A DNA stretch of 64,000 nucleotides. Origin: Hydra vulgaris (Eukaryota; Cnidaria; Hydrozoa; Anthoathecata; Hydridae). The stretch is taken from positions 7,722,501 to 7,786,500 of the forward strand of contig NC_088921.1 in assembly GCF_038396675.1 (NCBI RefSeq), in the 5' to 3' direction. The stretch's first letter is position 1. The number at the start of each line of letters is the position of its first letter. The position numbers were made by a program, and so were the translations under genes. Positions 37,576-64,000 of this stretch are shown piece by piece. Below the pieces are notes generated by a model. That model was not told the origin of the DNA. It saw only the letters and a list, made by a program, of their open reading frames with translations, and ran no database searches.

Positions 37576-37980
37576 CTTTTCAAACGCATTTTCATTTAAA
37601 ACTGAACTTGAAACTTTAAAAAAGAGTTTCACTGAGATACACATAATTATTAGAAGTATAAATAAATTGTTCGACAATCTAAAACAGTTCATAATACAAT
37701 ACAATTACTTATTTAGATAATTTTCCTAAATTAAAAATGGTGCACCGATAAATCGCCTCAAGCAAGGTTTATACAACAGATTATACACCAATAACTTCTG
37801 AAAGAAAAAAAAACAACAAATGCAGGAGGAATATCCGAAATAATCAAGCGAATAAAAAAGGAAAAGTCCTATGTTGACAACAAGTTCTTTACAATTGAGA
37901 TATTCAAAAAATCAAAAAATATTTTAGTCTATATTTTAGTCAATAAAAACTTAAAAAATATTTTAGTTTTCACCTTAGAC

Positions 37981-38925
37981 TGTTGTGTTGTAGACTGTTG
38001 TGTTGTAGACTGTTGTGTTGTAGACTGTTGTGTTGTAGACTGTTGTGTTGTAGACTGTTGTGTTGTAGACTGTTGTGTTGTAGACTGTTGTGTTGTAGAC
38101 TGTTGTGTTGTAGACTGTTGTGTTGTAGACTGTTGTGTTGTAGACTGTTATGTTGTAGACTGTTGTGTTGTAGACTGTTGTGTTGTAGACTGTTGTGTTG
38201 TAGACTGTTGTGTTGTAGACTGTTGTGTTGTAGACTGTTGTGTTGTAGACTGTTATGTTGTAGACTGTTGTGTTGTAGACTGTTGTGTTGTAGACTGTTG
38301 TGTTGTAGACTGTTGTGTTGTAGACTGTTGTGTTGTAGACTGTTGTGTTGTAGACTGTTGTGTTGTAGACTGTTGTGTTGTAGACTGTTGTGTTGTAGAC
38401 TGTTGTGTTGTAGACTGTTGTGTTGTAGACTGTTGTGTTGTAGACTGTTGTGTTGTAGACTGTTGTGTTGTAGACTGTTGTGTTGTAGACTGTTGTGTTG
38501 TAGACTGTTGTGTTGTAGACTGTTGTGTTGTAGACTGTTGTGTTGTAGACTGTTATGTTGTAGACTGTTATGTTGTAGACTGTTGTGTTGTAGACTGTTG
38601 TGTTGTAGACTGTTGTGTTGTAGACTGTTGTGTTGTAGACTGTTGTGTTGTAGACTGTTGTGTTGTAGACTGTTGTGTTGTAGACTGTTGTGTTGTAGAC
38701 TGTTGTGTTGTAGACTGTTGTGTTGTAGACTGTTGTGTTGTAGACTGTTGTGTTGTAGACTGTTGTGTTGTAGACTGTTGTGTTGTAGACTGTTGTGTTG
38801 TAGACTGTTGTGTTGTAGACTGTTGTGTTGTAGACTGTTGTGTTGTAGACTGTTGTGTTGTAGACTGTTATGTTGTAGACTGTTATGTTGTAGACTGTTG
38901 TGTTGTAGACTGTTATGTTGTAGGC
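37981..38925. repeat. 63-copy 15-bp minisatellite
   Basis: The unit TGTTGTGTTGTAGAC is repeated head to tail 63 times with almost no variation. The only recurrent change is G to A (TGTTATGTT), at 38150, 38255, 38555, 38570, 38870, 38885 and 38915. Because 15 is a multiple of 3, frames stay open on both strands (LQHNS repeats on minus, CCRLL repeats on plus). These are not evidence of a protein. The near-identity implies recent expansion. Confidence 0.97.
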
Positions 38926-39657
38926 GAAATAAGCAAAATTTCAAATTACCCGAAAGAAATCTTCCACGGAATAAATAATGATGGGAAAAAAATATTCTGT
39001 ATAGTAGATCTAAGCATTAACTGTTCAAATTACAACGAAAATGCGTCTACAAAACTCGTTTTCGATAAAATGCTTTAGATATATATCTTTCAAGTCGTCA
39101 ATAAACTCATTCTTTTTTAGAAGTCTCCTTAAGGTGGTAGTCTACCTTAAATAATGAAAATTTTCAAAGTTTTAAACTATACTGTTTTAGCCTATTTCAT
39201 ATACGTAGAAAATGGTGGTGATATTTGTTTTTTATAAAAATATTTAGAAATTAAATAATTTCATCATTAGACATAGTTAATAAACAAAAAAATTGTGACG
39301 CCTACTTTAAGTGAGTTTTTAAGAACTTTTTACTTGGATCTTTTAAGAAAAATGAATTATTATTCATTTTTTTTGAATCATTGGTACACTTTTTAAAGTA
39401 ACCCAGGGTATTCACATGCAGTTTTAAAGTATAACCAAAAGTAGAAACGCAGTTATATTCGTAAGATTTATCAGAAACTTAATTTTGCTGCTGGCAAATA
39501 TATTTTTCATTTATATATTATTCTGTGTCTTAATTAAACATATTACATTTAATTCCTGCAAGAATTTCTGCTTATCTTATCATAAATTTTAATGAGGGAT
39601 TAAATAGAATGTTAAATGTATTTAACATGTATAATGGAAAAAAATTAAATATGTATA

Positions 39658-46429: not shown

Positions 46430-47950
46430 TGCAAAGATTCAAGTTAGTCAAAACATTTGAATAAAATCTGTTCACATAAAGAGCAAAAATCGTTTAATGT
46501 GCAGTCTTCGTGTACCCAAACAGTACATACACAACAAGCTATACAGTCATTTTGGGTACCATTGCATCATTTTCCTTTTGGAGGATAAGGTTTTGGAATT
46601 TGAAATATGTCTTTAAAAGAACTTGATGAAGTAGCAGCGGTCTCTGAAAAGCTTTCAATTGGTTTTAATTTATCATGACTCATTAATTCTAATGTAGCCA
46701 GCTCTGGCTGCTGTAAAATTTCACTTTCTTTTTTGTTATTGCGTTCAAAGTGAAATTCATGAGGTATGGATAACCTGATGTTATTATTATTATCACTCAA
46801 AGATGTCCTTAGACATTCATTTTCTAACAAATGCAGATTAAATGGAACAATTCCAGTTGCTCTCAAACTTGAAGTAGCTGTTTCCATATTAGCAGCTTTT
46901 AAATATGTTTCATTAAAAATTTCCCCAAGATTTTCTGATTGTATTTGTCTTCCTGAATGGTTTTGCATCCATCTCATACATGCTTAATTAAAAAAGACTT
47001 TCATAGGCTTAAAAAATCCACGGTCCAATGGTTGAAGTTATGAGTTGTTGTGTGGCAATAGCGATAGCAAAAACAATCTATTGTCACAAGCATAGTCTAT
47101 AAGTTTTAAGCTTTTGGTATGAGAACGATGACGGTCAAATATAAATTAAACTTTGTTAATCAAGGTGCATCGTACATGTTTTACAAAATGTTGTATACAT
47201 TCAAGAAATAAATCAGTATTAACCCAGCCATTTTCTGAGCATCCTTGAATAGTTCCAACAGAAACATTATCTGTGAGTAATAATTTCTTTTTTTCGCGCC
47301 TAAATATCATCATGGGTGGTACATAATTACTAACAGAATTACATGCACATAAAATAGTTGTTGTGACTCCTTTTTTCTCACTTGTTACTGACGAAACACA
47401 CCGTTTTCCTGTGGATAATGTGGCTCAAAGTGATACTTATCTAACAAATTCTCTAAATTACTAAAATAGATTTTAATATTATCTTCGTTCAAACCAAACA
47501 CTCTGTTTATAGAAATTGCTTCTGGTTTTCTTAGTGATAAATCAGGATGGCATTTTAAAAAGTCTTGCACAAAGTCTTCTTCTGCTAATTTACTTTCTAT
47601 ATTAAAAGGATTTGGAATTAAATTGTTTTTGCAGAACTCAAATACTATCAATCTAATATCCATCATTGAGAGACCATAAAATGAATAGTCCATATCTATA
47701 ATATACTTATTTAGATCTTGTTCTTGGTTATCAGAAAGCACTTTTCGAAATCTTCCAAGTAAATTAGTATGTAAACTACGTTCAAGTGAAGCCTTTTTAA
47801 CACGATGTAGTAAATCTTTTGGCACACTAAAGTTTTTACAAGCTTTTCTTAAAGACATCTGCTTTAACGTCACTGATGTAATAGCATTTTTCATGTTATC
47901 TTTGTTCCAGTTAGCTTGATTAGTTTTTCTCTTGTAGTTTCTCGTTTAAA
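46430..47950 (-). pseudogene. pogo-type transposase
   Basis: The minus strand reads RNYKRKTNQANWNKDNMKNA and MSLRKACKNFSVPKDLLHRV (psq/CENP-B type helix-turn-helix). LGRFRKVLSDNQEQDLNKYI, YGLSMMDIRLIVFEFCKNN and LSLRKPEAISINRVFG follow (second DNA-binding domain). The DDE region comes next: TTTILCACNSVSNYVPPMMI, FIFDRHRSHTKSLKLIDYA, LLSLLPHNNS, stop, LQPLDRGFFKPMK. A zinc-finger-like tail (GTQNDCIACCVCTVWVHEDC) ends it. The first catalytic Asp, normally in DETG, appears as QENG. An in-frame stop and a frameshift near 47390 complete the inactivation. Confidence 0.88.
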
Positions 47951-48054
47951 AATTTTGGGTCACTAAATGACAACAAAGTAATGTTATATACATTTAAAGT
48001 TTCTAATAAAATTATGTTTTACTTTTATGTATAATTCTTTCATAAAATGATGAT

Positions 48055-48290
48055 ATCGTTTTCTGCTGAATTTACCAGGAAAAGTTTTATTTTTATATTG
48101 CACTCCTTCACAAGGTCTTCAATTAACGACAACCGGCGACGAACAAGTAGTTCTCCAAGACCGTGTACTCGAACGGGTTTGTCACCAATAATTGAGGAGC
48201 TCAACCAACCGACAACATTAGCCGAATCATTTTGTTGCTAGATTAATTCCTTTTATCTCGGCTTCTAACTCTGCAACTCTTCTAACTCTG
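48055..48290 (-). repeat. Inverted duplicate of the RNase H region of the LTR element
   Basis: The reverse complement matches 49245-49490 almost base for base (GGAATTAATCTAGCAACAAA; GTTGTCGGTTGGTTGAGCTC; GAGTACACGGTCTTGGAGAA). It differs by an internal block of about 25 bp replaced by a shorter one. It lies 5' of the pol fragment in opposite orientation, so the 1.4-kb unit is a giant inverted repeat with an approximately 950-bp loop. Its edge repeats CTTCTAACTCTGC several times up to 48345, as rearrangement filler often does. Confidence 0.9.
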
Positions 48291-48359
48291 CTACCGTTCT
48301 GCCGTTCTACCTACGGTTCTACCTGCCAACATCTTCTAACTCTGCTACCGTTGCAGCGA

Positions 48360-50526
48360 GGATGGACATATCAGTCGAAATTGTAGCGAAGAAATTGACA
48401 AGAAGAGGTGCTTTGTATGTGGAATGGACAATCACCTGGCCCTGCATTGCTATGAAAAGTGTACAAACTCAAAAAACGTGGAAGGGAAGCCACCCATTTT
48501 TTTTGAGATAATCGACTTAAAGAAAGCGTACCTGCAAATTCGTGCCGACGAAGCATTATGGAAATATCAAGTTGTGGAATATGAGGGGCAGCGTTACTGT
48601 CTAACAAGTTTCGGTTTTGGTTTAAATGTGGCGCCCAGAATAATGACTAAAATCTTAAAAAAGGTATTATACTTAGATAAATTTGTCGAGTCTGGGACGG
48701 ATTCATTTATTGATGATATCATTGTCAATAATAACATAGTGTCAAGTTGCAGAGTTCAAGAACTCTTGAAAAAATATTGCTTGGATTCTAAGTTGCCAGA
48801 AAAACTTGTCGGTGGTCGTGTGCTTGGATTGCGAGTGTACAAACAATGCAACCAAGTCCGTTGGAAACGTGACAACATACCCAAAGTTCCGGAAGAAAAA
48901 ATGACACGTCGGCAAATCTTTTCTTGATGCGGATAGCTGACCGGACATTTTCCAATAGCAAATTGGATGCGCCCTTCGTGCAGCTATCTAAAAAGAGTTT
49001 TGAGTAGTTGTGGATGGGACTCTTTGGTGAACGAACGAGTTGTTAAATTAGTAAGCAGTTTGAATGAAAGACTTACAAAGGAAGATCCCGTTTATGGGTC
49101 ATGGAACGTCAAAAACATTTCTGAAGCAACAGTGTGGTGCGATGCAAGCAGTTTAGCTGTTGGCATAGTTTTGGAAGTGGCTGGGGAAATAGTAGAAGAC
49201 TGTTCGTAGCTGAGGAAACAAGATGATACGGCTCACATTAATCTTGCAGAGTTAGAAGCCGTGATAAAAGGAATTAATCTAGCAACAAAATGGGGGTTTG
49301 AATGTATTAACATATAGTGTGATTACTGTTGTCGGTTGGTTGAGCTCCTTAATTATTGGTGACAAACCCGTTCGAGTACACGGTCTTGGAGAACCACTTG
49401 TTCGTCGCCGGTTGTCGTTAATTGAAGACCTTGTGAAGGAGTGCAATATAAAAATAAAACTTTTCCTGGTAAAGTCAGCAGAAAACAAAGCCGATGCTCT
49501 TACGAGGATACCACAGAACTGGCTGCATTCAAACCATTCTGCAATGACAGCAAACATTGTACCGCCTGATGTGAAGTCGTTTCATAATCTTCATCACTTT
49601 GGAGTCAATCGAACACTTTATTTGATGAAACAGACATATCCGAAGGAGAAAGTTTGCAGAAAAGATGTTGAATCAGTCGTGAAAAGTTGTGAAAGATGTT
49701 TATCGGTGAATCCTGCGCCGATTAGATGGGAAGAAGGAAATCTTAAAGTTGGAAAGAGCTGACATCGTTTGGCTATTGACATAACCCACTACAAATCAGA
49801 GATTTATTTGTCTATTATTGACTGTGGAAAAAGGAGCAAGTTTGCAATTTGGAGAAGGCTACAGAACGAGAAAGTTGTTACACACACTGTTACAGAACAG
49901 TGTGCTTCCGTTTAGAAGAAATATTCCGAGAAAGAGGACCTCCGTGGCAGGTTCTACTTGACAACGGCAAGACTTTTCGCTCAAAACTCGTTGGTGAATT
50001 ATGCGCAGATTGGGGAGTGTCCATCTTGTTTCGTTGCGCTTACAGGCCATCTGGAAATGGAATTGTTGAACGTCACCATCGCACAATCAAGCGCATGACA
50101 GCCAGAAGTGGCAAAGACCCGTTAAAAATGATATATTGGTATAACATAGCTCCCAGAAAAAATGGCGAGAAAACATCGCTCCCCTACAAAGCTATATTTT
50201 CCTACGAGTGGAAACCACACACAATTTCTGCCAAAACTAAAGCGGAAGTTCTCCACAACTATACACAAGGACAAGAAGTATTTGTAAAACCACCTGACTC
50301 AAAATGCACGAGCGAATGGAACAGAGGAAGAGTCTCAGATGAAGGACGAGGAGTTTCGATAGAAATCAATGGATTGCCAAGACACATGTTGGACGTCCGT
50401 CCTGCTCCCATTGTAGCTGACTTGTCTATCAGAGAATCGGAAGAACCCATCGCGGATAACCTAAATCTCCGAAGATCGACGCGAGTGCGGAGGTTTCCAA
50501 ATAAGTATGCGGACTTTGTGATCTAG
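48360..50526 (+). pseudogene. LTR retroelement pol: zinc knuckles, RT, RNase H, integrase
   Basis: Frames in order: EDGHISRNC and RCFVCGMDNHLALHC (two CCHC-type knuckles), EIIDLKKAYLQIRADEALWK, TSFGFGLNVAPRIMTKILKK, and the catalytic FIDDI box (reverse transcriptase). VWCDASSLAVGIVLE and AELEAVIKGINLATKW follow (RNase H). The integrase has a CERCLSVNPAPIRWEEG zinc region, DITHY, LLDNGKTF and NGIVERHHRTIKRM (D, D, E). The tail reads RRSTRVRRFPNKYADF. Frameshifts and stops near 48927, 49209, 49762 and 49850 disable it. Gag and protease were not found. The order fits Ty3/Gypsy-like or a related class. Confidence 0.88.
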
Positions 50527-50534
50527 AGATCAAG

Positions 50535-50632
50535 GGGTGTTGTAATTAGTGTAAATAACTGTATTATATATAAACTATTGTTGTGTTGCGACAGAAGGAA
50601 CGTTGTGGTTGTGTCATTTATTACATTGTATA
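50535..50632 (+). repeat. Candidate short 3' LTR
   Basis: It starts TGTTGTAATTAGTG right after a purine run (GATCAAGGGG) and ends TTTATTACA. It contains TATATAAA at about 50569-50577. TG...CA ends and a polypurine-like run just after the integrase stop fit a 3' LTR of about 97 bp. No 5' LTR is available for comparison, so this is tentative. Confidence 0.4.
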
Positions 50633-50835
50633 TAACGTTTACAATGTTTATTATACCCTCGGGGGTATTTGAAAATGTATATATATTGAGTAAAGATATT
50701 TACAAAGTGTGTGAGAAAAACAAATATAGAATTAATATTACAGTTTATAAACTTGCTGTCCCAAACGTTTACTTTGACGATCTTTTTCAGGAACTAGCGT
50801 TGTCGCACTTTCCCTATAAATGTGAAGTCATGTAG
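50578..50835 (+). other. Open frame downstream of the LTR element, unrecognised
   Basis: 85 residues, with a hydrophobic start (VVVSFITLYITFTMFII) and a mixed rest (NKYRINITVYKLAVPNVYFD). It overlaps the candidate LTR, so the first third is unlikely to be an independent gene. No family was recognised. Confidence 0.15.
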
Positions 50836-51188
50836 TTCTTAAATATCTTTGAAACAAAATAATCTGACATAAAAAGAAGTAGCTGAAAAATAACAAAAGA
50901 AAGATTACAAACTCAATATAATGTTTCTTCTGTGGTAAAAAATTGCCGCGTACGTGGATTTTTTCCAGATAAGAAAAAAAAAATTAATTTTTCAATTACA
51001 GGGTTATTCAAAATTATATTCACTTGTATTCAAAATTATAATCACTTGTATTCAAAATTATAATCACATCTATTCAAAATTATAATCACATCTATTCAAA
51101 ATTATAATCACTTGTATTCAAAATTATAATAACATGTATTCAATATTATAATCGACTTAAAATTCATGAAAATTTATTACCTTCCGTG

Positions 51189-51414
51189 ATGGCAAGAAAA
51201 GCAAGAAAGCAAGTAACGAAAGAAATTTATAATATGGTTATAAATATGCAAGAAAGCAAAAAATATACTATCAAACAGATTTCAAATACCGTAAATCTCT
51301 GCACCAGGGCAGTTGGAAAAATAATTAAAAAATATGAAGATGGAGTTGCGTTTGTATCATCTGGTGAAAAACTTAAAGAAACTTGTCTTAAAAAAAGAAG
51401 AGTTTTTGATCCAA
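51189..51414 (+). pseudogene. Tc1-like transposase, N-terminal part
   Basis: It starts at ATG 51189 (MARKARKQVTKEIYNMVINM) and includes the helix-turn-helix KKYTIKQISNTVNLCTRAVG with KIIKKY. This binds the terminal repeats. The reading frame is cut at RRVFD by the Chapaev insertion at 51415. The remainder lies at 54533-55327 and continues in the same frame once one copy of CCAA is discounted. Confidence 0.88.
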
Positions 51415-51830
51415 CACTGTGGACCAGAGATGAGTTTAGGTTTGATGGAGTGTCACCTGGGATTTTTTCACTGATAAGTTATTGTTACCATTATAGTAAA
51501 AAGATTTAATCATAGTTAAAATTAGTTTCACTTGCTAAGACAATAAAATTGTCAAATCAATTTTCAAATAAAATGTGAAAATGAGTAAGTAAAGTTAAAC
51601 TGAGTACCGAGTTTTACGTAGAAGACCTCTTTATAACGTATAACCATTTAAACTAAAATTTAAACTAGCTTTAAAATGTTACTGTTGCGTATTTAGTATA
51701 CTAGACTACAAATTTGACTTTTTCAATAAGCTAAAAAATCAAAGAGCGCTTCTCCTTTAATGAAAATTGTCTGGATGTTACTCTTAGCAATAAGTAATAA
51801 TACTTATTAAATAAAAGTACTAAATATATT

Positions 51831-52112
51831 ATGTCTGGAAACAGTTTCTTACGTAATTCGGTTTGTGCAGTGTGTTGGGTTGAAAAAAGTGCAAGATGTA
51901 AGTCGCTATCTGAAGTCACTAACCGAATACAAGATATTATCAAACTCTACATATATGATGGTTATGAATGATATATAATGAATACATATATGATGGTTAT
52001 TAAAAATATTATGAGTTTTCCTAATGTCATATGTGGTAGTTGTAAACGAAATTTATACCTTCTTAAGAGCGGCCATACTTCTAGGGGATCATGGGGACTT
52101 CAAGTTGCTAAG
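51831..52112 (+). CDS. Chapaev-like transposase, zinc-binding N-terminal exon(s)
   Basis: The ATG at 51831 starts MSGNSFLRNSVCAVCWVEKS, then ARCKSLSEVTNRIQDIIKLY. The same frame goes on after one TGA (about 51969) to FPNVICGSCKRNLYLLKSGH and WGLQVAK, with a donor AAG|GTATTT at 52113. CAVC...C and CGSC look like zinc-binding pairs that flank a helical segment. The TGA lies where ACATATATGATGGTTAT is tandemly duplicated, so a recent duplication probably caused it, or a small intron removes it. Exon 52399-54084 follows in phase 0. Confidence 0.65.
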
Positions 52113-52398
52113 GTATTTTTTTATACTAATACTAATTATATTATAATACATATAATTTATATGTATACTATTTCAATTTTATGTAAATAAGTTATATTTG
52201 TGTGTGTGGATGTACTATATTGGTGGTCATTTATTCCTGTTTATGCAATTGTTAGCAAAAAATTTCAACAATCTATATATATTTAGACATTTTAATATAT
52301 AAGATAACTAAAGCAAATTATTACAAACAAATCTCTTTGTATAATTTATTGTTAAGTTGTAGTAGAATTTTGTTAATTTATAGTCTGAAATGCTTTAG

Positions 52399-54084
52399 AT
52401 TGATTGGGCCAACAGAAGGCGATCTTCTGATCCATGTTTGGGTGTCACTATTCCAACATTTAGTGAACCGAAAGTAGCTGAAAACGTATGCATTATTTGT
52501 TTTCTTGTTACTGGACGAGGCATTTCTCATCAGTGTACCCAAGCTGCTGCTGTAGACAACTTAATTGGTCACTGTTTACAATTAGGAGAATATGCAGAAC
52601 AAATAGCCAGTGCTTTAATTAAAAAAAAGATGGAGAGCGAAGGTATAGAAAAAGGGACATTTTTTAAACTAAAAACACGAGGAACACCTATCTCTATTAG
52701 AGTTGGAGCTCCCAATTTAAAGAGTAACAGAAGCAGTAAACAACTTTCTCTTCAAACAGTCATAGAACTGCAAGTCTCTCTTGAACTTTCTGATAATGCA
52801 ACTAAAAAACTTTGTTCTACAATTAGAACTGGATTAAATAGAAGAGACTCTGTGGAAGGAAATATAGTTCAAAAACTAGATAATCTTAAAGAACAACTAG
52901 ATGAATTTTATAGCGTAGAACAAATTGAATTTGTTTCTAACCAGAATGAAGCTATCATAAGAGATTTAGTATATATTAAAAATCCCTCTGATTTAATCCT
53001 GCATATTATCAAAGAAAGAGGTTTAAATCCATGTGTAGGTTTTGTACGAGTTTCCTTAGATGGTGGAGGAGGCTTCCTTAAAGTTGTTGTGAATGTTTTT
53101 GAAGAACAAGAATCTGAAAATAAATTTATGAATAGTGGCGTTCAAAAAGTTCTTATTATAGCGATTGTTGAAGATATTTCTGAAAAATATGAAAACCTTA
53201 GATTAGTGCTTGATAAACTTAATCTTGAGGATGCAAACTATTATATTGCTTTTGATCTTAAATGTGCCAATGTATTATTTGGTCTTTCATCGCACGCAGG
53301 TAAAAAAGCTTGTTTGTGGTGTAGTGGCAAATGTACGCTTGATATAGGTACTCTTAGAACTATTGACAATCTTGATTCCTGTTATGAAGCATATATTAAA
53401 AATGGATCTATCAGATCGTCCATGAAGGAATTTGATAACATTGTGAACAAACGCCTAATATATCTTAACACTGATAAAAGTACTTTTCTAGAAAATTTAG
53501 TTGCTCCACCTGAGCTGCATCTTCTCATTGGAGCAGTAGATAAAATAGCAGGGTTTCTTTTAACTGAGTGGGATGGTTTTGAGTTGTGGTTGAAAAAACA
53601 CTTTATAATTAAAAGAGGATATCATGGAGTTGGTTGGGATGGTAATAATGCAAATAAAATTTTAAAATTGATTGATGAACTTCAACATGAAGTGCAACTT
53701 AAAGTACCTTATCTACTTCCTGTAATCCAAAGCTTAAGAGCTTTTAAATCTGTAAAAGAAGCTTGTTTTGGAAGAAATCTCGATCCTGACTCAGAACACA
53801 AAATAGCGTTGTTTAAAGATGCTTTTTTATGCCTACAAGAGACAGCTTCTTCACTCGGAAAGACACTAACAGTGTCATGGAAAATCCATATTATATGCTG
53901 CCATGTTTTTCCTTTTGTAAAGCATGCAGGATGCGGCTTGTCAAAGTATGCAGAACAGTGTGGTGAGGCGATTCATGCAAAGTTTAAGCCTACGTGGCAA
54001 AGATATAAACGTAATATAGATCATAAAGATTATGGAGATAGATTAAAAACTGCTGTTGTTGATTTTGGAATTAAAAGATTATAA
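52399..54084 (+). CDS. Chapaev-like transposase, main exon, open
   Basis: After acceptor TGCTTTAG the frame stays open for 561 residues: IDWANRRRSSDPCLGV, a third zinc motif CIICFLVTGRGISHQC, FVRVSLDGGGGFLKVVVNVF, AFDLKCANVLFGLSSHAGKK followed by CLWCSGKC, APPELHLLIGAVDKIAGFL, KRGYHGVGWDGNNANKIL, then SWKIHIICCHVFPFVKHAG and KYAEQCGEAIHAKFKPTW. By analogy with RAG1/Transib-type RNase H folds I propose Asp in DGGGG, Asp in FDLKCAN and Glu in CGEAIH as the catalytic triad, with CLWC in the zinc-bearing insertion. It would cut and join the element's ends in the nucleus. No internal stop was seen. Confidence 0.8.
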   Translation: MDWANRRRSSDPCLGVTIPTFSEPKVAENVCIICFLVTGRGISHQCTQAAAVDNLIGHCLQLGEYAEQIASALIKKKMESEGIEKGTFFKLKTRGTPISIRVGAPNLKSNRSSKQLSLQTVIELQVSLELSDNATKKLCSTIRTGLNRRDSVEGNIVQKLDNLKEQLDEFYSVEQIEFVSNQNEAIIRDLVYIKNPSDLILHIIKERGLNPCVGFVRVSLDGGGGFLKVVVNVFEEQESENKFMNSGVQKVLIIAIVEDISEKYENLRLVLDKLNLEDANYYIAFDLKCANVLFGLSSHAGKKACLWCSGKCTLDIGTLRTIDNLDSCYEAYIKNGSIRSSMKEFDNIVNKRLIYLNTDKSTFLENLVAPPELHLLIGAVDKIAGFLLTEWDGFELWLKKHFIIKRGYHGVGWDGNNANKILKLIDELQHEVQLKVPYLLPVIQSLRAFKSVKEACFGRNLDPDSEHKIALFKDAFLCLQETASSLGKTLTVSWKIHIICCHVFPFVKHAGCGLSKYAEQCGEAIHAKFKPTWQRYKRNIDHKDYGDRLKTAVVDFGIKRL

Positions 54085-54239
54085 TATTGTATAGTTATAG
54101 AAATTATGCTTTGTAAAATTTTTCAATTTTATTATATTGTAAAATAAAGCTGCCTTAGAAAATTTTGTGGGATTAGAGCAAAGGGACAAATATAACCCAC
54201 AATTTTAGACATCCCATGCCCACCTGTGTTAAATAGGTT

Positions 54240-54425
54240 TTCAATAAAAACTTTTTTACTGACATAAACTAAATCAAAATTAATCAATAGATTTCAAATT
54301 TCATCAACAAATACTTTGGCATTCAAGAGTTGTGGCCATGTAAAATTAACAACCCCCTCATTTTTGTTGTTGGGGGAGGGGGTTCATAGTTTTGTGATTT
54401 TTTCACTCTAAGCAAGTAAAACTAA
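54240..54425. repeat. Foldback-family core in the Chapaev 3' region
   Basis: GTGGCCATGTAAAATTAACA followed by CCCCCTCATTTTTGTTG and GGGGGAGGGGGTT resembles the cores at 29800-29870 and 43515-43570. The outer arms are less clear here. It lies between the transposase stop and the right terminus. Confidence 0.45.
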
Positions 54426-54532
54426 TTTTAAATATGATTAAATCATGTTAGTATAATGAAAACAATACTTAATCAGTAAAAAAATCCCAGGTGACACTCC
54501 ATCAAACCTAATATGCCTTCTGGTCCACAGTG

Positions 54533-55327
54533 CCAATTGAACAACTATTATACAATTCCATTTTAATTGATAATTCAATAACACAAAATGAGTTAAAAAC
54601 TCTCATACATGATGTAAATGGTGTTATAATATCACAACCATCTATATCAAGAAAAATTAAAAAGATAGGGATGAGTCGAAAAAGACTCTCTTTGATTCCA
54701 ATTGAAAGAAATGATATAGAAAAAATCAACGCAAGAATTATCTATGCAGCCGAGATATCAAGAATCGGGAATAAAAATCTCGTGTTTCTTAATGAAACTG
54801 GTTTTAATCAGCATACGAAAAGAAGATATGGTTATTCACCTATGAATATAAAAGCCTTTGTTGCTGTTCCAGCAAATAAATCGGTTAATAAAAGTTTAAT
54901 ATGTGCTATTGATTATAATAGGATCATTGGTTATAAATATAGAACAGGCTCTTATAATGGAACTGAATTTATTAATTTTATTTCAGTGTTGGCTCCATAT
55001 TTCGCATCGCACCCGAATAGCATTTTAATTATGGATAATGCCAGAATTCATAAAACTCATGAAGTTCAAAGAGTATTAAGTTCTCTTAATATTCCATTTA
55101 AATTTATTGTGCCTTATTCTCCTGAATTGAATCCAATTGAGGAATTTTTTTCAATGTTTAAATCAAGATATTGTGCAATACGAAGAGCAAATCCAACATT
55201 AACAATTGAACAATGCTTAGATTTGGTGGCATCATCTGATAATGATTATTCATTACAATGCCATGGATTTTATGAAAATGTGAGAAGATGGGTTGAAAAG
55301 GCTCAAAACGGTGAACAATTCATTTAA
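54533..55327 (+). pseudogene. Tc1-like transposase, C-terminal DDE part
   Basis: Starting in frame at PIEQLLYNSILIDNSITQ, it reads SRKIKKIGMSRKRLS, then the DDE_3-type core: VFLNETGFNQHTKRRYGYSP, LIMDNARIHKTHEVQRVLS and YSPELNPIEEFFSMFKS. The second Asp and the Glu are 34 residues apart (DD34E), as in Tc1/IS630. The first catalytic residue, normally Asp in LDETGFN, is Asn (AAT codon), so the enzyme would be dead even without the insertion. Together with 51189-51414 the protein would be about 338 residues, the normal family length. Confidence 0.9.
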
Positions 55328-55779
55328 TTAAATAAATAATACAATTTTTTTATTTAAAATTTTATTAAGTTTTTAATAAAAATTGTCAATAATTTTGAAT
55401 ATATGTGACTATAATTTTGAATACAAGTGATTATAATTTTGAATAAATCTGATTATAATTTTGAATAGATCTGATTATAATTTTGAATAGATGCGATTAT
55501 AATTTTGAATACAAGTGATTATAATTTTGAATACAAGTGATTATAATTTTTAATAACCCTGTAAATTGACGCAACTCGTAAGCTTTAAATCCACTTTTCT
55601 ATGTCATATTATATGAAAAAAATGATGGAAACTACTTTAAAATATTAAAAAAAAAACATGAAATTTTGAATATAATTAAACAAAATTACTGAATAATTTC
55701 AAAAAAATTCTGTACAAAGCTAGAAAACCTAATTGTCGTACTTTGCCCCGGCGTCTTGCTTTGCCCCAGGTTACCCTAA

Positions 55780-57575
55780 CTAGTTGTTTTGATTTAGTTC
55801 ATAGGTATATTTACTGTGATGTACTTTATCCATTTAAGTACATTCTTAAGTAGCAATTATATTATAAAATAACACAAATTATAATAAAATTTTTTATATT
55901 ATAATATGTAATTTTTAAACTATGTAAAGAGATATTTAGAGACACAATCTTAATGCCCCGCTTTGTTAAAAAAAAAGTAAACTTTAAAATCTTTGTGACA
56001 CCAACAACACTAAATTGTTGTTGTTGATGTCACAAACAGCGATATATCTAAACCCAACTTAAAAATACTATGAACTCCAATTGTTACTTTATACGCAGCT
56101 ATTCTAACTCTAATTAAATATTATTTATATAACATTACTTTAACATCTAGTTAAGAAATATATTTTTTATATAAACTTTATAAACCACTCTAAACAAGAA
56201 GCAATTTTATTAGTGTTTTTAAAACTTAAATCCGATAATAAAACTAAATCTAATTCACTTAAAGGTTGAGGAAAAACTATCTTTATACGCAATATTAAAA
56301 TATCATTTTAATTTTATTTATTTTTAGATTCAATTTTATTCTTAGGTATTTCTACAGACGGACTAGACGTACCCTAGATCCGCCCCTGATTAATAATAAA
56401 TTTGTATATATAAAATAAAAATTTACGTTGTTAATTTAATGAAATAATAAATTTCGAATTCAAGGTCTTCAAAACTATGATATTTTATGCCATTTTTGCG
56501 CCAAAAATATTCTAAAATATTTAAATGTAAATAGTTGCGTTTCTGATAAAAATCGGATAAAAATGCGACAAACTAAAACACTTTTCTATTTGAATGACTA
56601 AACAAGTAGTAATAAAGTTGACTTGCTAAAATATTTTTTATGTTATATTTATCAAACCCACTCCCCTTTTTCACAAATTAAAACAAATTTCGACTTTCCC
56701 CTAATAGCGTGACGTAATTTATAGACTTCCTTTTTATAATTTTGTTAAGTTTACAGGCCTGTAGGCCGTGATAAGCGAGGTGTAGCACGTTCTTCTCTAC
56801 GATTTTTCCTATTTACGCCATAAAAGTATCGCAATAGATTATTTAGTAAGCTAAAAACTATGAATTAGAAATATTTTTTTTTAAAGTTATAAATTTATAA
56901 ATTTAAAAATTATAAATTACAAATATATTTATATTTTTTTTTAGTTTACAATGTTAGTCGTGATACAATAAAATAAACTATTAAAAGCCCTTTGCAAATA
57001 TATATATATACAATGCGTGATAACAGTGTAAACTAGGTTTCTGAAGAGAAGGAACTAGGGTTCCAAAAAAAAATCACTAAGATCTTATCATCGGAACCTT
57101 TAAAAAATTTAAAAAAAAAACTATTAAAAGAATCTTTTACATAAGCAAAACTGTAAACAATATAAACAACATATATAAATATAAAAACAATATAAATGGT
57201 TGTAAACAACATAACTACAAAACTTTATAAAAAAAATAATAAAAATCCCAAAATAAAGTTAAATAGTAGATAAAATAATTAGTAATACTGTAAAATGTTA
57301 TCGACGGAAAGAATTAAATTTCTTATTTTATTTTTGAAAAGATAAAAAGAATTTGGTTGATCAAAATTTTTGGTTTCTTCCATAGGTGCGGTGCTCGATA
57401 GGCAAGGCAAAATTAATTGAAATTTGTTTGAAAAATAGGTTCGTTAAAAAAAATTTTTATTATTAGTTTGTATTTTTTTCTGGGTTTTTAATTGAAAAGA
57501 CATTTTAAGACTGGGAGGAGGGGGGGTGGATAGATTGTTTTTCCACATTTAAACAAAACATAAAATTTTCAAAAC
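55780..57575. other. AT-rich spacer
   Basis: I found no gene. A small inverted repeat (TTTGTGACACCAACAAC / TTGTTGATGTCACAAA) at about 55992-56037 lies here. TAGATCCGCCCCTG near 56380 looks like an isolated MITE end. Confidence 0.4.
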
Positions 57576-57579
57576 ATTG

Positions 57580-58335
57580 ATTTCAAATATATTTAAAACT
57601 TTCATTTCAATAAAATAAGGTTTACAATGAGAAAAACGATCAGTAAAGTTAGTTATGCAAATTGCTTGTTTCTGACAGCGATAAAGATTTTTATATACTT
57701 TTTCCAGTACATCCCCAGGCAATATTAGCGTAGTTTATGTAGCAGTGAATAAATAAAAAATGAAGTTGTTTTTTCTTATTGGAATAAATTCGAGCTTTGT
57801 ATAAAACCCCAATTTTTTTAGAGACTTAAATGCATACATAATTAATATGCTGATACCAAGTAATTTTTTTTATTTCAAATTCATCAATAAAGATTTAAGG
57901 CAAGTATGATAGAGGGTCCATTTAGTTTTGTCATTATTTAATGTTAATTTATTGGATTTGAACCAGTAGGATAAAAGTTTAACGTCTTTATTTACGGCGA
58001 CAAGAAGTTCGCTGATATCACTCTTAGAGATAAATATATTAGTATCATCAGCGTGCGCGATGCTCATCAGATTAGTAGCATTATTTAGATTATTTATATA
58101 GATTAAAAAAAAGAGAGGTCCGAGGATTGAACCTTGTGGAGCTCCACAAGTTATATTTAAACAATTATTGGGATAGTTGTCATTACCAACAACAAATTGT
58201 TTTTGCTTTAAGTAATACTAAACCATCTTAACACTTGGCTATTTACTCCCTTGTATTTATTTTTTTCAAGTTGGATGTGATGATCAACCGTATCAAAGGC
58301 TTTCGAAAGGTTGACACTTAAAATAACATATAAAA
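57580..58335 (-). pseudogene. CR1-like LINE reverse transcriptase fragment
   Basis: On the minus strand: NLSKAFDTVDHHIQLEKNKY, then GAPQGSILGP-like sequence at 58125-58150 read across frames, IAHADDTNIFISKSDISELL, WFKSNKLTLNNDKTKW, IGVLYKARIYSNKKKQLHFL and INYANIAWGCTGKS. The DD box reads HADD. Several frame changes interrupt it, and the 5' end is truncated near 58335. Confidence 0.8.
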
Positions 58336-58339
58336 CTCC

Positions 58340-59515
58340 GTAAAAAATTTTTATTTTTTGTTTTGTACTATAATTTTGCATATAATAATAAGTTTGCGAG
58401 ATACAGGTGTCGTTGTAAAAGTTTTAGTTTGTTAAATATATAAAATGCATACTCAAAATGCATATTCAAAAAAAAACTTTGAACCTTCATTATTCAGTAT
58501 CCTGGAGACCAAAATAAAAGTTTTGATATGGATACACGCCTTGTCACATGTAGAACAATAATAATCCTCGGAGTTTTCATCAGTTTTTTTTTTTATAAGT
58601 CATTCCTATTTAAAAAAAAGCACAATTATGCTATCATAGGCAACCGCTGCTCCTATGATGGTAGAGGGGAGGATGGGGCTGGTTAGGATGAAGGGTAACT
58701 TTATGATTTCATTTAACCTTAGACTCTTCCCTCAGAAAAGCCTGAAATTACTCGGAATTATCCTAGTTTACCATTTCATGCTACACAGCAGCATTGTAAA
58801 GTTTTGCGCATGCGCATTGGATATATTGCGCTATATGTGATTTTTGGATCAAAGAAAAAACTTTTGGAGCATTGCTTTCTTTTTACTTTACTTAAAAATA
58901 AGTTTTTCTTATAAAAAAAAAGGTTTTCCTATCTCGTCAAAATTGCAACACACTCAACTCGTCCCTATCATGAGAAGAAGTCAATATTTTTATTTAAACA
59001 AGCTGTGTCTGCTTTGTTCAAAGGATAAAATTAAAGTAAGTATTCCACCAAATACACAAGACTTGGAAGTAAAATGCATAAAATTTCCTTTTCTGCACAG
59101 TTAATAATAAAATCACAATCTTAAATATATGAAGGGAATAAAACTACACCAGCACAACCCAAAATCGATTTTTGTTAACAATAAAAACAAAATTAGTGCA
59201 CAAGGGACATTTTCCCTCTAAAACTAATGTAAAGTTAGTAAAGTCATGTAGGTCTAATCACTTTTTTCACCAAAACCAGTTTTTATGGAAATATGTCCGG
59301 TATGCCATATTAGGTGCTATGTCACCATTGGCGAACTTCCCCTATATATTAAAGATTAAAAGCAATTTAAAAGTAAAATTGTTTTACAACAAAACAAAAC
59401 AAAATAATAACTACACATAGTTTTAAAAAAACTAAAGAAGCTCAAATGATGTCATAGTTTGGTTGACTGTCATTTAACTAGAATGGTATACGTAGCTTTT
59501 TAACAATAGTTTATT
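58340..59515. other. Region with short open frames, unrecognised
   Basis: Frames at 58844-59104 (IKVSIPPNTQDLEVKCIKFP) and 59172-59420 (VKLVKSCRSNHFFHQNQFLW) on the plus strand are open but match no family I know. Stops lie between them. They could be eroded coding of the LINE that begins at 59524, or chance. Confidence 0.25.
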
Positions 59516-59523
59516 ATGGAAAT

Positions 59524-59930
59524 TTGACTAAAATAAATACTTTTGTTAGTGAACATGTTAAGATGGATTGCGTAGATTTTTCAGCAAAGATAGTTCATCA
59601 AAAACTAAAAAATCTAAAACCTAGCACATCATTTGGACCTGACGGTATACCAGATATACTTTTAAAACAGTTTGCGCATATAATATGTATTCCGCTTTCA
59701 TATATATTCAAATCAAGTTTTACGTCAAGCTCGTTACCAAAACAGTGGCTTCAAGCTTTGGTATCGCCTATTTTTAAAAAGGATCAACTTCAGATGCTAA
59801 CAATTATAGACCTATATCCCTCACATGTACTAGCTGTCGAGTAATGGAAAGTATTGTTAAGTTCATGTATCGCTGATTATCTTAATATAAATAATCAAAA
59901 TTAGTGAGCTTTTAGAAAAAAATTGCAAAC
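59524..59930 (+). pseudogene. LINE reverse transcriptase N-terminal fragment
   Basis: The plus strand reads HQKLKNLKPSTSFGPDGIPD, ILLKQFAHIICIPLSYIFKS and PKQWLQALVSPIFKK. After a frame change it reads ANNYRPISLTCTSCRVMESI. These are the opening blocks (GPDGI, P..W....V.PI.K, NYRPISL) of a non-LTR reverse transcriptase. The catalytic blocks are missing. Confidence 0.8.
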
Positions 59931-59934
59931 TCAA

Positions 59935-60675
59935 AGATATATTTTGTTTAAAAACAATGTCACGTCACATATAAGAGGAGGTGAGGGTTGATAAAAATGT
60001 TCCGTGGGGGAAAGAGAGTCTAAAATAGGCCTAAAAAAGATGTCACGTATTATCTGAACAGCCCCTTATGTGTATATAAATATTTATTTTTTTACAAAAA
60101 ATGAAAAAATTAAAACGAAGAATCTTTTGTATTTTCGTTTCTTTTAATCAAAAGTTTTGTGACATAAAATATTTCTAAAAATAGGAAGGACTTTATGTCA
60201 TGCCCCTATTTATTTGTGTCCACCACTGGCTGCTGCTATGCGATTTATATTCATTTGATGCATGCATGCAATGCTGCTGAAATATAATACATTATATTAA
60301 ACAATCTGCTAGCCTACCAGTGAGCTTGCAATGAGCTAGTTATAGCATCAAGTTTAGTGTAATTTGAACTCATTTAGTATAATTTAGTAAAACTTTTATT
60401 TTAAAATGCGTGCCATCAAGTTAACTTAACTAAGCAAACAAAGTTATCTTTCTTTTTCAAGAAAACCATCCAACCTCCCTCGGTAAATATGCAATTATCA
60501 AAATAGGAAGGTCAAAGTGGAGTATAGGGTAGAACGTGACATTTCGGGACAGTTATACATGAAGCTTTATATCTCAGCTAATAAAAATTTTTTTCATTAA
60601 CTAAGAAAAATTGAAAGTTAAATTTTCACAACAATTAGATAAAACCTTATAATCCTTATGAAATCTATATTTGTG
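59935..60675. other. AT-rich spacer
   Basis: No recognised gene or repeat. Confidence 0.4.
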
Positions 60676-60679
60676 ATAT

Positions 60680-60750
60680 GAAAACTTCATTAATTTAAAC
60701 CGTAGTTTAAATTTTTTTTTTTAACTACGGTTTAAATTAATGAAGTTTTC
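60680..60750. repeat. Inverted repeat with about 30-bp arms
   Basis: GAAAACTTCATTAATTTAAA then CCGTAGTTTAA faces TTAACTACGG then TTTAAATTAATGAAGTTTTC across a T run. The right arm ends exactly where the hAT coding remnant begins. Confidence 0.9.
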
Positions 60751-62260
60751 AAAATACAGAAGGTTTATTAAATAAACTTTTTTTTACCAATTTTAACAAA
60801 TTGTTATAATGAACTTTATTATTTTCGAAATGAGAAAAAAGTTTCAACCCATCACTTGTCACATTTAACAGACTGTGAGTTCCAAGAAGAAAACTTTTCC
60901 TGAGCGCAATATAAATTAGTTCTCCGATTTTCGTCAAACAATTTATTGTCATCAAATGTGATTTCTGTTGATTTTTTCAAAAAAGTTATAGTTTCAATAA
61001 ATTCAATCCATTCAACTTACAGTTAGATAAAGACCATTTAAAAACTTCAACCTGATTATAGTGACGCTAAAGGTAGATGTTTTTCTACTTCTCTAGATTT
61101 TATATGGTCTTTCAAATCCTTTAATACTACGGCAACTTCAGCAGCAGAAATATCATCTTTCTCAATTTTTTTTGCCGTGTTATAAAAAACATTGGCTTGC
61201 ATGTGAACAAAAAACAATACTATTTCACCTATTTCGTTATTAAAAAAGTCAAATAAAAGTTTAAAACAATTTTCTAAGCTTAAAAAGTATGATCTAGTAG
61301 CCAATTAACTTAAGCAATCTTTCGATAGCTTAAAGTAAGGCCAACCAACAAACCTTTGAGAATCCTTGCAATATTTAATTCTCCTCACCGGCCTCATCGC
61401 AGAAATTTTCTAAACTAGAAACTCGAACAGTAAAACGGTAAAAAAAAATAATTAAGTTTGAGAAATAATTATCTCCACACCAATAGATAAACAACCAGAT
61501 GCAGTGTTTATTGCATTTGATAAACTAAGAGCATTGCAACCGATACCAATGATTTTACAGATTAGGTTAACGATTAACTTTTTGTAAATATTGTTATTAC
61601 CGTTTTGTTTTAAAACTCTAAAATTAATATTGGTTTTGTCTGCAGAAAAAGCCAAAACTTTTAAAAAAATATTGTCAACACTATGGCATTTAAAGATAAC
61701 TTCTGATAGAATATCTGATGTTTCTCCATTTACACAATCTATGTTAATCAGTCGAATGTGTACTCCCTCTTTAACATCAAAGTAACGAGCCAAAATTGGA
61801 TGGATTTAAACTTCCTTGTGGTTTGATGCACAGAAAGAATTGATACATATGATGCTTTTAATAAAGAATTTTTTGAGTAAGTTTCACAATATTTCTTGAA
61901 CACGTTTATACTTATTGCTTCAAATTTTGTACGCGTTCGAGCAAATCTTGGATTATAAAATATCTTAATTAGCTTTGATGTACAATCAGCACTTCTAAAC
62001 CCATGGTTGTATTTGATTGTGTGGAATGCAATTGTTCATTCTTGAATGGTTAATTTTTTTTCATTTCGACCAAAGCTCTGACTCTTCATTAAATTTGTGA
62101 TTTTGTTTGACAATATAGAAGCATCCAATGCTATTTTGTGTTTGATAGATTTGCAATGATCTTCAATTGCAGACTGTCCACGACTACTAATCTCAAATAG
62201 ATTTTAACAAATAGTACATTTGAGGAGGTCATCTTTGATCATTAAATTAGAAAATTATCA
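60750..62260 (-). pseudogene. hAT-like transposase with BED-type finger
   Basis: Minus-strand order: DDLLKCTIC then SAIEDHCKSIKHKIALDAS (BED-like C..C...H..H finger), HTIKYNHGFRSADCTSKLIK, RYFDVKEGVHIRLINIDCVN, VLAFSADKTNINFRVLKQNG, LICKIIGIGCNALSLSNAIN, CLSIGVEIIIS, and later KLFSHFENNKVHYNNLLKLV. The pattern of ADKTN.NF and IGIGC..H..-like blocks is typical of hAT-derived ZBED-like proteins. Stops and frame changes are spread through it. The final dimerisation motif is missing because the copy ends at 60750. Confidence 0.75.
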
Positions 62261-62264
62261 TTAA

Positions 62265-62840
62265 ATGTGTTTAACCTTCTCTTCTTACTATTTATTTTTT
62301 GAATTTGATGTATTAGTAGTTATATAAACCTTAAATTACTTCTTTATGAACACTTATTTTATGTACTTCTTTTTAAAATAAATCGCAAAGCATTATTTAC
62401 AATAATTAGGGAAAAAAGACATTACAAGGCAAACAAAATTTGCGTAAAGCAAGCGCATTTTCTTTGTTGTAGTTGAAAAATCTTTCGAAGTAATTTTTTT
62501 TTAATGTTTACGGAAATTTAATTCATTTAGTTTCGTGTTTTATAGTTAAGTTTATTGGAAGTTTATTCATTTTGTTTTTTAACTATATTTTAGAAAATTC
62601 ATTTACTAAAAGTCTTTCAAATAATACGCAAAACTAACGTCAAACGCCTACTGTACGCGCCAAACCCTTACATATGGTCTCCTTTTTTCTTATTGCTTAG
62701 AGGATATGCGAATAAAATATACGTAGCCATTATTTACGTCATTGCAATCAGTTAATAGTTCCCACTTTACTTCTTGTAAGAGATTGCGAAACTTAGCGAG
62801 GGATTCATTGGTTATTTTTTTACATAAACAATTTTTTTTT
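62265..62840. other. AT-rich spacer
   Basis: No recognised feature. Confidence 0.4.
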
Positions 62841-62849
62841 TTAATTTTT

Positions 62850-63500
62850 TTTATTCTTGGGTTGCAGAACATGTAATCAGAAAAACTGGAAAACGGTTAC
62901 TGATATCTGTTTTAACAATACCACTTTGCATTTTAGCCTTTTTATAATTATTAATAATAATATTATTAATAATGGATGCAGTTATTTTTGTCACGCGTGT
63001 TCGCTTGTTAATCATGGGGAAAATGCTGTTTTGCAAAAGTGTATTCATAAAACGCGCAATGTTTTATGAATACACTTTCTCTGTTTTATTATTCGAAAAA
63101 TTCAAATTAAAATCAGCCAATAAAGAAACGTATTTTTTTACGAGCTTTGGTAACAAGTAGTTTAAGTTGTTTTCAAATTGTAATTACCATTTGGCGGTCT
63201 ATATAATGCTGTTATAAATGTATTTTTGTTTCTTTTATTAATAATTTCAATAATAAATGACTCACAATTAACGTCATTTACTTTGAGGTTACCTATAAGC
63301 TTAAAGTCAATGAGTTTTGGATAAAAATAGATACGCCCGCGCCAATACCGTTTATTCTCGGTTGATGGATGGGTTTATATCCTGATAAATGAAAGTTAGA
63401 TTTAATCGTGTCTCGATGACACTAAATTTCTATTAGACAAATAAGACTAAACTTGTTATTTACATTATTAAGCATTAACTTTAAATTTTCAAAGTTTTTA
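62850..63500 (-). pseudogene. LINE endonuclease domain
   Basis: The minus strand reads ICLIEI near 63440, ALYRPPNGNYN near 63210 and AKMQSGIVKTDISNRFPVFL near 62910. This is the same order as the endonuclease at 26180-27300 (ICLTETW, CYRPPEGD, AGVIKTDISDHF). The SDH motif is SNR here, and ETW is lost. It is a decayed relative of that family. Confidence 0.75.
63036..63078. repeat. Perfect inverted repeat, 18-bp arms
   Basis: AAAGTGTATTCATAAAAC and its exact complement flank a 7-bp loop (GCGCAAT). It lies inside the decayed LINE endonuclease. Confidence 0.92.
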
Positions 63501-63504
63501 TGAA

Positions 63505-64000
63505 TATTTTTAATGTTTTCTATTTCTAAAATTTCTAGTTGTTATTATCAAAAACACAAAAATACCAAAGGAAAATAAAATCTAAGCACTTTTATGCAAT
63601 TTTTTTAAAATCTTTAACTACTAATTTATTTTAAATAACGACAGAATATTTACCGTTATTCCTGTGAGTTCGCATTTCTTCAAAGAAGTTTTTCCGTTTG
63701 GTTAGGATATCCAAAGAGAAGCCCTCATTTATGAATATATTTGTTCCTTTTAAATTTTTTGAGTTCTTTAATAAGCTTTTTTTCTTTATAGTTCAATAGT
63801 TTTATTACGATCGATCAAGGTTTACTTAGTCCAGTGTTTCCTGTCTTATGTATCCTTTAAATAACTACGTCACTTATATTTAGTTCGTTTTCAAAAATAC
63901 TTAAAACTTTTTCTTTACTTAATTCTCGGATTTGTGGCTGCTTATCTAATTTCATTGCCAGAAGAATATTTTCTTGATGACCTAAAAATTCATTTCTTTG
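63505..64000 (-). pseudogene. LINE ORF1-like protein, partial at window edge
   Basis: The minus strand reads HQENILLAMKLDKQPQIREL, SKEKVLSIFENELNISDVVI, RIHKTGNTG, IVIKLLNYKEKKLIKELKKF and NKYIH. The R.HK.G.......IVIKLL pattern matches the ORF1 C-terminal domain (compare ERAHRVG...PRTIVLKLL at 27305-28165). It precedes the endonuclease in the same direction and runs off the window end. Confidence 0.65.

Follow-up and report, generated by a model that had tools for sequence, protein, structure and literature searches.

A Chapaev-type transposon nested in a Tc1/mariner-type transposase gene of Hydra vulgaris, with a 4-bp target duplication and an empty segmental duplicate

In a stretch of 64,000 nucleotides of the Hydra vulgaris genome (hereafter the window; C2:7722501-7786500), a transposase gene is split into two parts, and the DNA between them is bounded by two copies of CCAA. 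Which element was inserted, exactly where does it begin and end, and when did it arrive? The original prediction had described a precise, dated, Chapaev-like insertion into a Tc1-like transposase gene. We followed it up with genome-wide searches of the 911.5-Mb, 15-contig assembly; loci fetched for comparison carry L-numbers, of which L038-L058 are 21 other copies of the interrupted host element. From the evidence below, a cut-and-paste transposon of the Chapaev superfamily (CMC group) almost certainly inserted into the transposase gene of a resident Tc1/mariner-type DD34E element with a 4-bp duplication of CCAA. The features are listed in Table 1.

Table 1. Features of the nested insertion and of the loci compared with it (window positions unless a contig or locus is named)
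Feature	Position	Strand	Remarks
Host Tc1/mariner-type DD34E transposon	50999..55561	+	1441 bp after subtraction of the insert and one CCAA; flanked by TA at 50997-50998 and 55562-55563
Host left end	50999..51153		seven-unit array of 22-bp repeats
Host transposase gene, left part	51189..51414	+	interrupted by the insert
CCAA, left copy of target duplication	51411..51414		single CCAA in 18/21 other host copies and in the segmental duplicate
Chapaev-type DNA transposon	51415..54532	+ (transposase direction)	3118 bp; exact inverted termini, relatives elsewhere in the genome
Putative first coding exon of Chapaev transposase	51831..52112	+	cysteine pairs; boundaries from GT/AG and frame, not from transcripts
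Main transposase ORF	52399..54084	+	561 aa; C(2)C aa 305-308, LH 373-374, H(4)H 497-502; D221, D286, E519/E523
CCAA, right copy of target duplication	54533..54536		same basis as left copy
Host transposase gene, right part	54537..55327	+	DDE_3, PF13358, Pfam E 4e-22
Host right end	55389..55561		inverted array, seven 22-bp units
Coverage by segmental duplicate, colinear	47329..64000		= C2:6696547-6708335; limits are the extent compared, not measured ends
Second-family Chapaev copies	L009, L011-L013, L015-L020, L022-L024, L027, L029-L032, L034-L036

Elsewhere in the window, 48340-50743 holds a broken LTR-type retroelement with zinc knuckle, RVT_1, Integrase_H2C2, and rve matches, and its part at 48503-50743 has many genomic relatives at 93-97% identity (33 of 419 candidates scored). 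A short repeat forms a long array at 37795-39078, in which several frames of both strands are open.

The ends of the insert were located by its terminus, CACTGTGGACCAG, which lies directly inside both CCAA copies, at 51415-51427 on the plus strand and at 54520-54532 on the minus strand. The window contains no other match at ≤1 mismatch (mean in shuffled sequences, 0.01). Genome-wide, exact matches to the terminus numbered 82 forward and 69 reverse, compared with 1 and 2 for a control with the reversed pattern. The inverted repeat of the insert spans ~126 bp at 87.5% identity and so extends beyond the 13 bp first quoted. When the host flanks are joined with one CCAA, they read GTT TTT GAT CCA ATT GAA CAA, that is, V F D P I E Q. 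Both the CCAA duplication with the element ends and the restoration of the host frame by discounting one CCAA were thus borne out, the former to the base. The original prediction had also taken the frame to fix the duplication at 4 bp; this argument is sound, but the frame constrains the length modulo 3 only, and the exact length is set by where the inverted repeats end and by what the empty sites and the other copies of the element show.

The Tc1-like nature of the host, as originally claimed, held. The host shares with the Tc1/mariner (IS630-Tc1-mariner) group its TA flanks, the DDE_3 domain, a DD34E catalytic spacing (counted by eye), and a weak match of the right part of its transposase to Mos1 (E 0.0019). 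TA was found on both sides in 17/17 host copies with both ends readable, the window copy included. It differs from that group in its ends, which consist of tandem 22-bp units whose number varies among both-ended copies (left, 3-9; right, 3-13), and the window copy differs further in its first catalytic Asp codon (54791-54793), which is AAT (Asn). This codon is GAT in 20/21 other copies and AAA in L048.

A genome search with the right part of the host gene returned 26 matches: the window, the 21 other copies, and four that were short or distant. The 21 copies are 96-99% identical to the query, L057 and L058 over part of it. Three of them (L039, L041, and L047, at C8:19.7, 20.4, and 20.9 Mb) have flanks in common on both sides and form a local duplicate cluster. 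Copies running uninterrupted across the insertion site, which the original prediction had proposed as a check, exist, 20 in all, 18 with CCAA intact and two with a point change; in the 21st, L058, the left half is not readable. The exact 20-base junction TTTTTGATCCAATTGAACAA is present in 15 of the 21, and five more uninterrupted copies show one or two substitutions, with CCAA in L045, L052, and L054, TCAA in L055, and CTAA in L057. Among the empty sites, differences around CCAA are confined to point changes in L055 and L057, both of them more diverged copies. No insert was found at this site among the 20 readable copies, so there is no sign of the composite having multiplied.

One of these copies, L038, is found on the window's contig at a distance of ~1.07 Mb, shares its host flanks with the window on both sides, and belongs to a colinear duplicate of 47329-64000 (Table 1). 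The duplicate is without exactly the insert and one CCAA; it also lacks window positions 50401-50922 and 58284-62249 and carries two stretches of its own. The L038 locus is a true empty site. With the retroelement excluded, the duplicate and the window differ at 85/7057 sites (1.2%), segment by segment 8/728, 9/444, 2/418, 7/1028, 31/2689, and 28/1750 (host limits include ≤3 flanking bases); inside the retroelement, 36/1881 sites differ. We also considered whether L038 might be a leftover allelic copy. The assembly, presumably the one described in PMC12220107, most probably represents a single haplotype from a resolved pair, and the duplicate lies ~1.07 Mb distant with its own insertions and deletions; a segmental duplicate is therefore more likely, and the allelic reading was rejected. 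Of the stretches that the duplicate lacks, 58284-62249 (3966 bp) showed no evident inverted ends in the short pieces examined. Sequences similar to 56800-58450 (83-85%) occur at eight further places at C2 0.2-8.5 Mb; older local duplications thus seem plentiful at this end of the chromosome.

The empty duplicate also bears on the possibility that the whole structure is an assembly artefact in which two unrelated elements were misjoined. Both families are repetitive, which would favour such an error, but the base-exact ends, the perfect duplication, and the match of both flanks to an independent duplicate make it so improbable that we give it practically no weight.

Since the duplicate is without the insert, parsimony places the insertion after the duplication, and Chapaev would by parsimony have arrived within ~0.6% substitutions per lineage. 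The private changes of the insert (21/3085 sites, among 12 aligned copies) agree roughly with this figure. The event predicted as precise and dated is thus precise, and its date is an order relative to a 1.2%-divergent duplication, not an absolute age. The same private changes, being about half of the divergence of the duplicate, would also fit an insertion older than the duplication, with the element lost from the duplicate at C2:6.70 Mb by precise excision or gene conversion. Conversion could likewise explain why the host segment, at 9/1446 sites, is less diverged than its flanks (e.g., 31/2689 and 28/1750), but this low value may reflect coding constraint or chance. The duplicate matches the other empty sites, with a single CCAA and no footprint, and the window host and L038 share substitutions and flanks absent from other host copies. 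On balance we consider an older insertion unlikely and retain the order of duplication first, insertion second.

To assess the duplication length in other copies with these termini, forward and reverse ends <6 kb apart were paired from the first 100 of the 151 terminus matches listed, which gave at least 28 two-ended copies besides that of the window. An exact 4-bp duplication was present in 22/28 fetched pairs, or 23/29 with the window copy; in one of the 29 the flanks repeated 3 bp but not 4, and a 5-bp match at the flanks was found in 0/29. When left and right flanks of different copies were combined as a control, a 4-bp match occurred in 11/812. A genome search supplied six more copies from the family of the window's insert; four had both ends recognisable, three of them exact at 4 bp and L067 with one mismatch. 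Altogether, 25/32 other two-ended copies have an exact 4-bp duplication, as originally predicted, and no other length appears as a class. The seven inexact copies have one mismatch (L010, L018, L067), two (L014, L034), or three (L023, L032); L032 has two candidate left ends, neither of which fits a 4-bp duplication. The duplications vary in sequence between copies, and the insertions are therefore independent. G and C make up 35/92 bases of the 23 exact duplications compared with 591/2116 of the near flanks (p 0.044), a target preference too weak to claim. The left flank of L026, TAATGAAACTGG, resembles a stretch of the host gene and raised the idea that Chapaev targets the host family; this was rejected, as the L026 flanks align to the host by short chance matches only.

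What, then, is the insert? A duplication of 4 bp is not unique to Chapaev, as other superfamilies such as Sola, Academ, and Ginger also produce it, and Transib as a general rule duplicates 5 bp. The main frame of the insert contains the motifs CLWC (type C(2)C), LH, and HIICCH (type H(4)H). A second family (~42% identical, see below) keeps all three motifs, together with D221, D286, and E519/E523, in 15 or 16 of the 16 sequences compared; these acidic residues are putatively catalytic. According to PMC4079192, Chapaev is marked by CAC...GTG ends, target duplications of 3-4 bp, and the motifs C(2)C, LH, and H(4)H, and Chapaev3 by 3-bp TWA target duplications; an example in PMC4411706 shows a 5-bp duplication, CCAGG, for Transib. 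The insert has CAC...GTG termini, a 4-bp duplication, and all three motifs. Its duplications are neither 3-bp TWA, being 4 bp and varied, nor 5 bp (0/29 copies, as above). Judged by termini, duplication, and motifs, the insert is Chapaev proper, and the Chapaev-like assignment of the original prediction stands.

Pfam and PDB sequence searches with the inserted transposase gave no usable match, and a single-sequence structure prediction of the main ORF (mean pLDDT 34.8) was too poor for use. That no database profile recognised the transposase leaves some room for another 4-bp-duplicating superfamily (e.g., Sola, Academ, or Ginger), but the CAC...GTG termini and the three motifs fit Chapaev/CMC. 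Chapaev3 shares related transposase motifs and CAC...GTG ends, but its 3-bp TWA duplications, as given in PMC4079192, are unlike the varied 4-bp ones here. We regard membership in any of these other groups as highly unlikely. With the Chapaev superfamily, the insert shares the CAC...GTG ends, the 4-bp duplication, the three motifs, conserved and putatively catalytic acidic residues, and a predicted intron, and no feature was found that distinguishes it; the window copy is defective. The putative intron, 52113-52398, is based on the reading frame and GT/AG. The first exon contains a TGA stop at 51969-51971, inside a 33-bp tandem duplication that is private to the window copy and missing in 13/13 aligned relatives. 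Because of this stop, the window insert can probably no longer make a full transposase. The main frame is open in the window copy and broken in 13/13 aligned relatives.

The terminus matches also revealed a second Chapaev family, to which 21/28 fetched pairs belong (Table 1), with a consensus length near 3.55 kb. The best matches of the other twenty copies to one of them, L031, are at 94.4-99.2%, and ten copies have an open frame of 570-571 aa. The first 15 terminal bases and the following AGGTT are common to the two families, and their transposases are ~42% identical. Judging by these copies, the second family seems young and that of the window in decay; movement of the latter in trans by the former is therefore conceivable, though we hold it to be unlikely. 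If true, the event would be a case of cross-family mobilisation, fixed in place by the empty duplicate and the 4 bp duplicated at the target.

The steps of the nested insertion can be proposed as follows. Segmental duplication would have come first. The inserting transposase, presumably of the DDE type, would then have made a staggered cut with 4-base overhangs at the codon for P in ...RRVFD-P-IEQLL... of the host gene, and gap repair would have left CCAA on both sides of the Chapaev element; staggered cutting and gap repair are established for such elements. The insertion broke the host gene, in a copy that also carries the Asp-to-Asn change at the first catalytic residue.

The event is an ordinary nested insertion and ordinary genome biology. 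Genomes rich in repeats commonly contain transposons inserted into one another, and a single such event carries little weight. Its value is that of a clean worked example, in which the ends and the duplication length of a Chapaev family are fixed by three independent routes, namely the coding frame, the paralogous uninterrupted copies, and the empty segmental duplicate, the whole with a relative date. It also offers two small testable leads: the termini that two distant families of Chapaev have in common, and the 22-bp arrays, variable in number of units, at the ends of the host.
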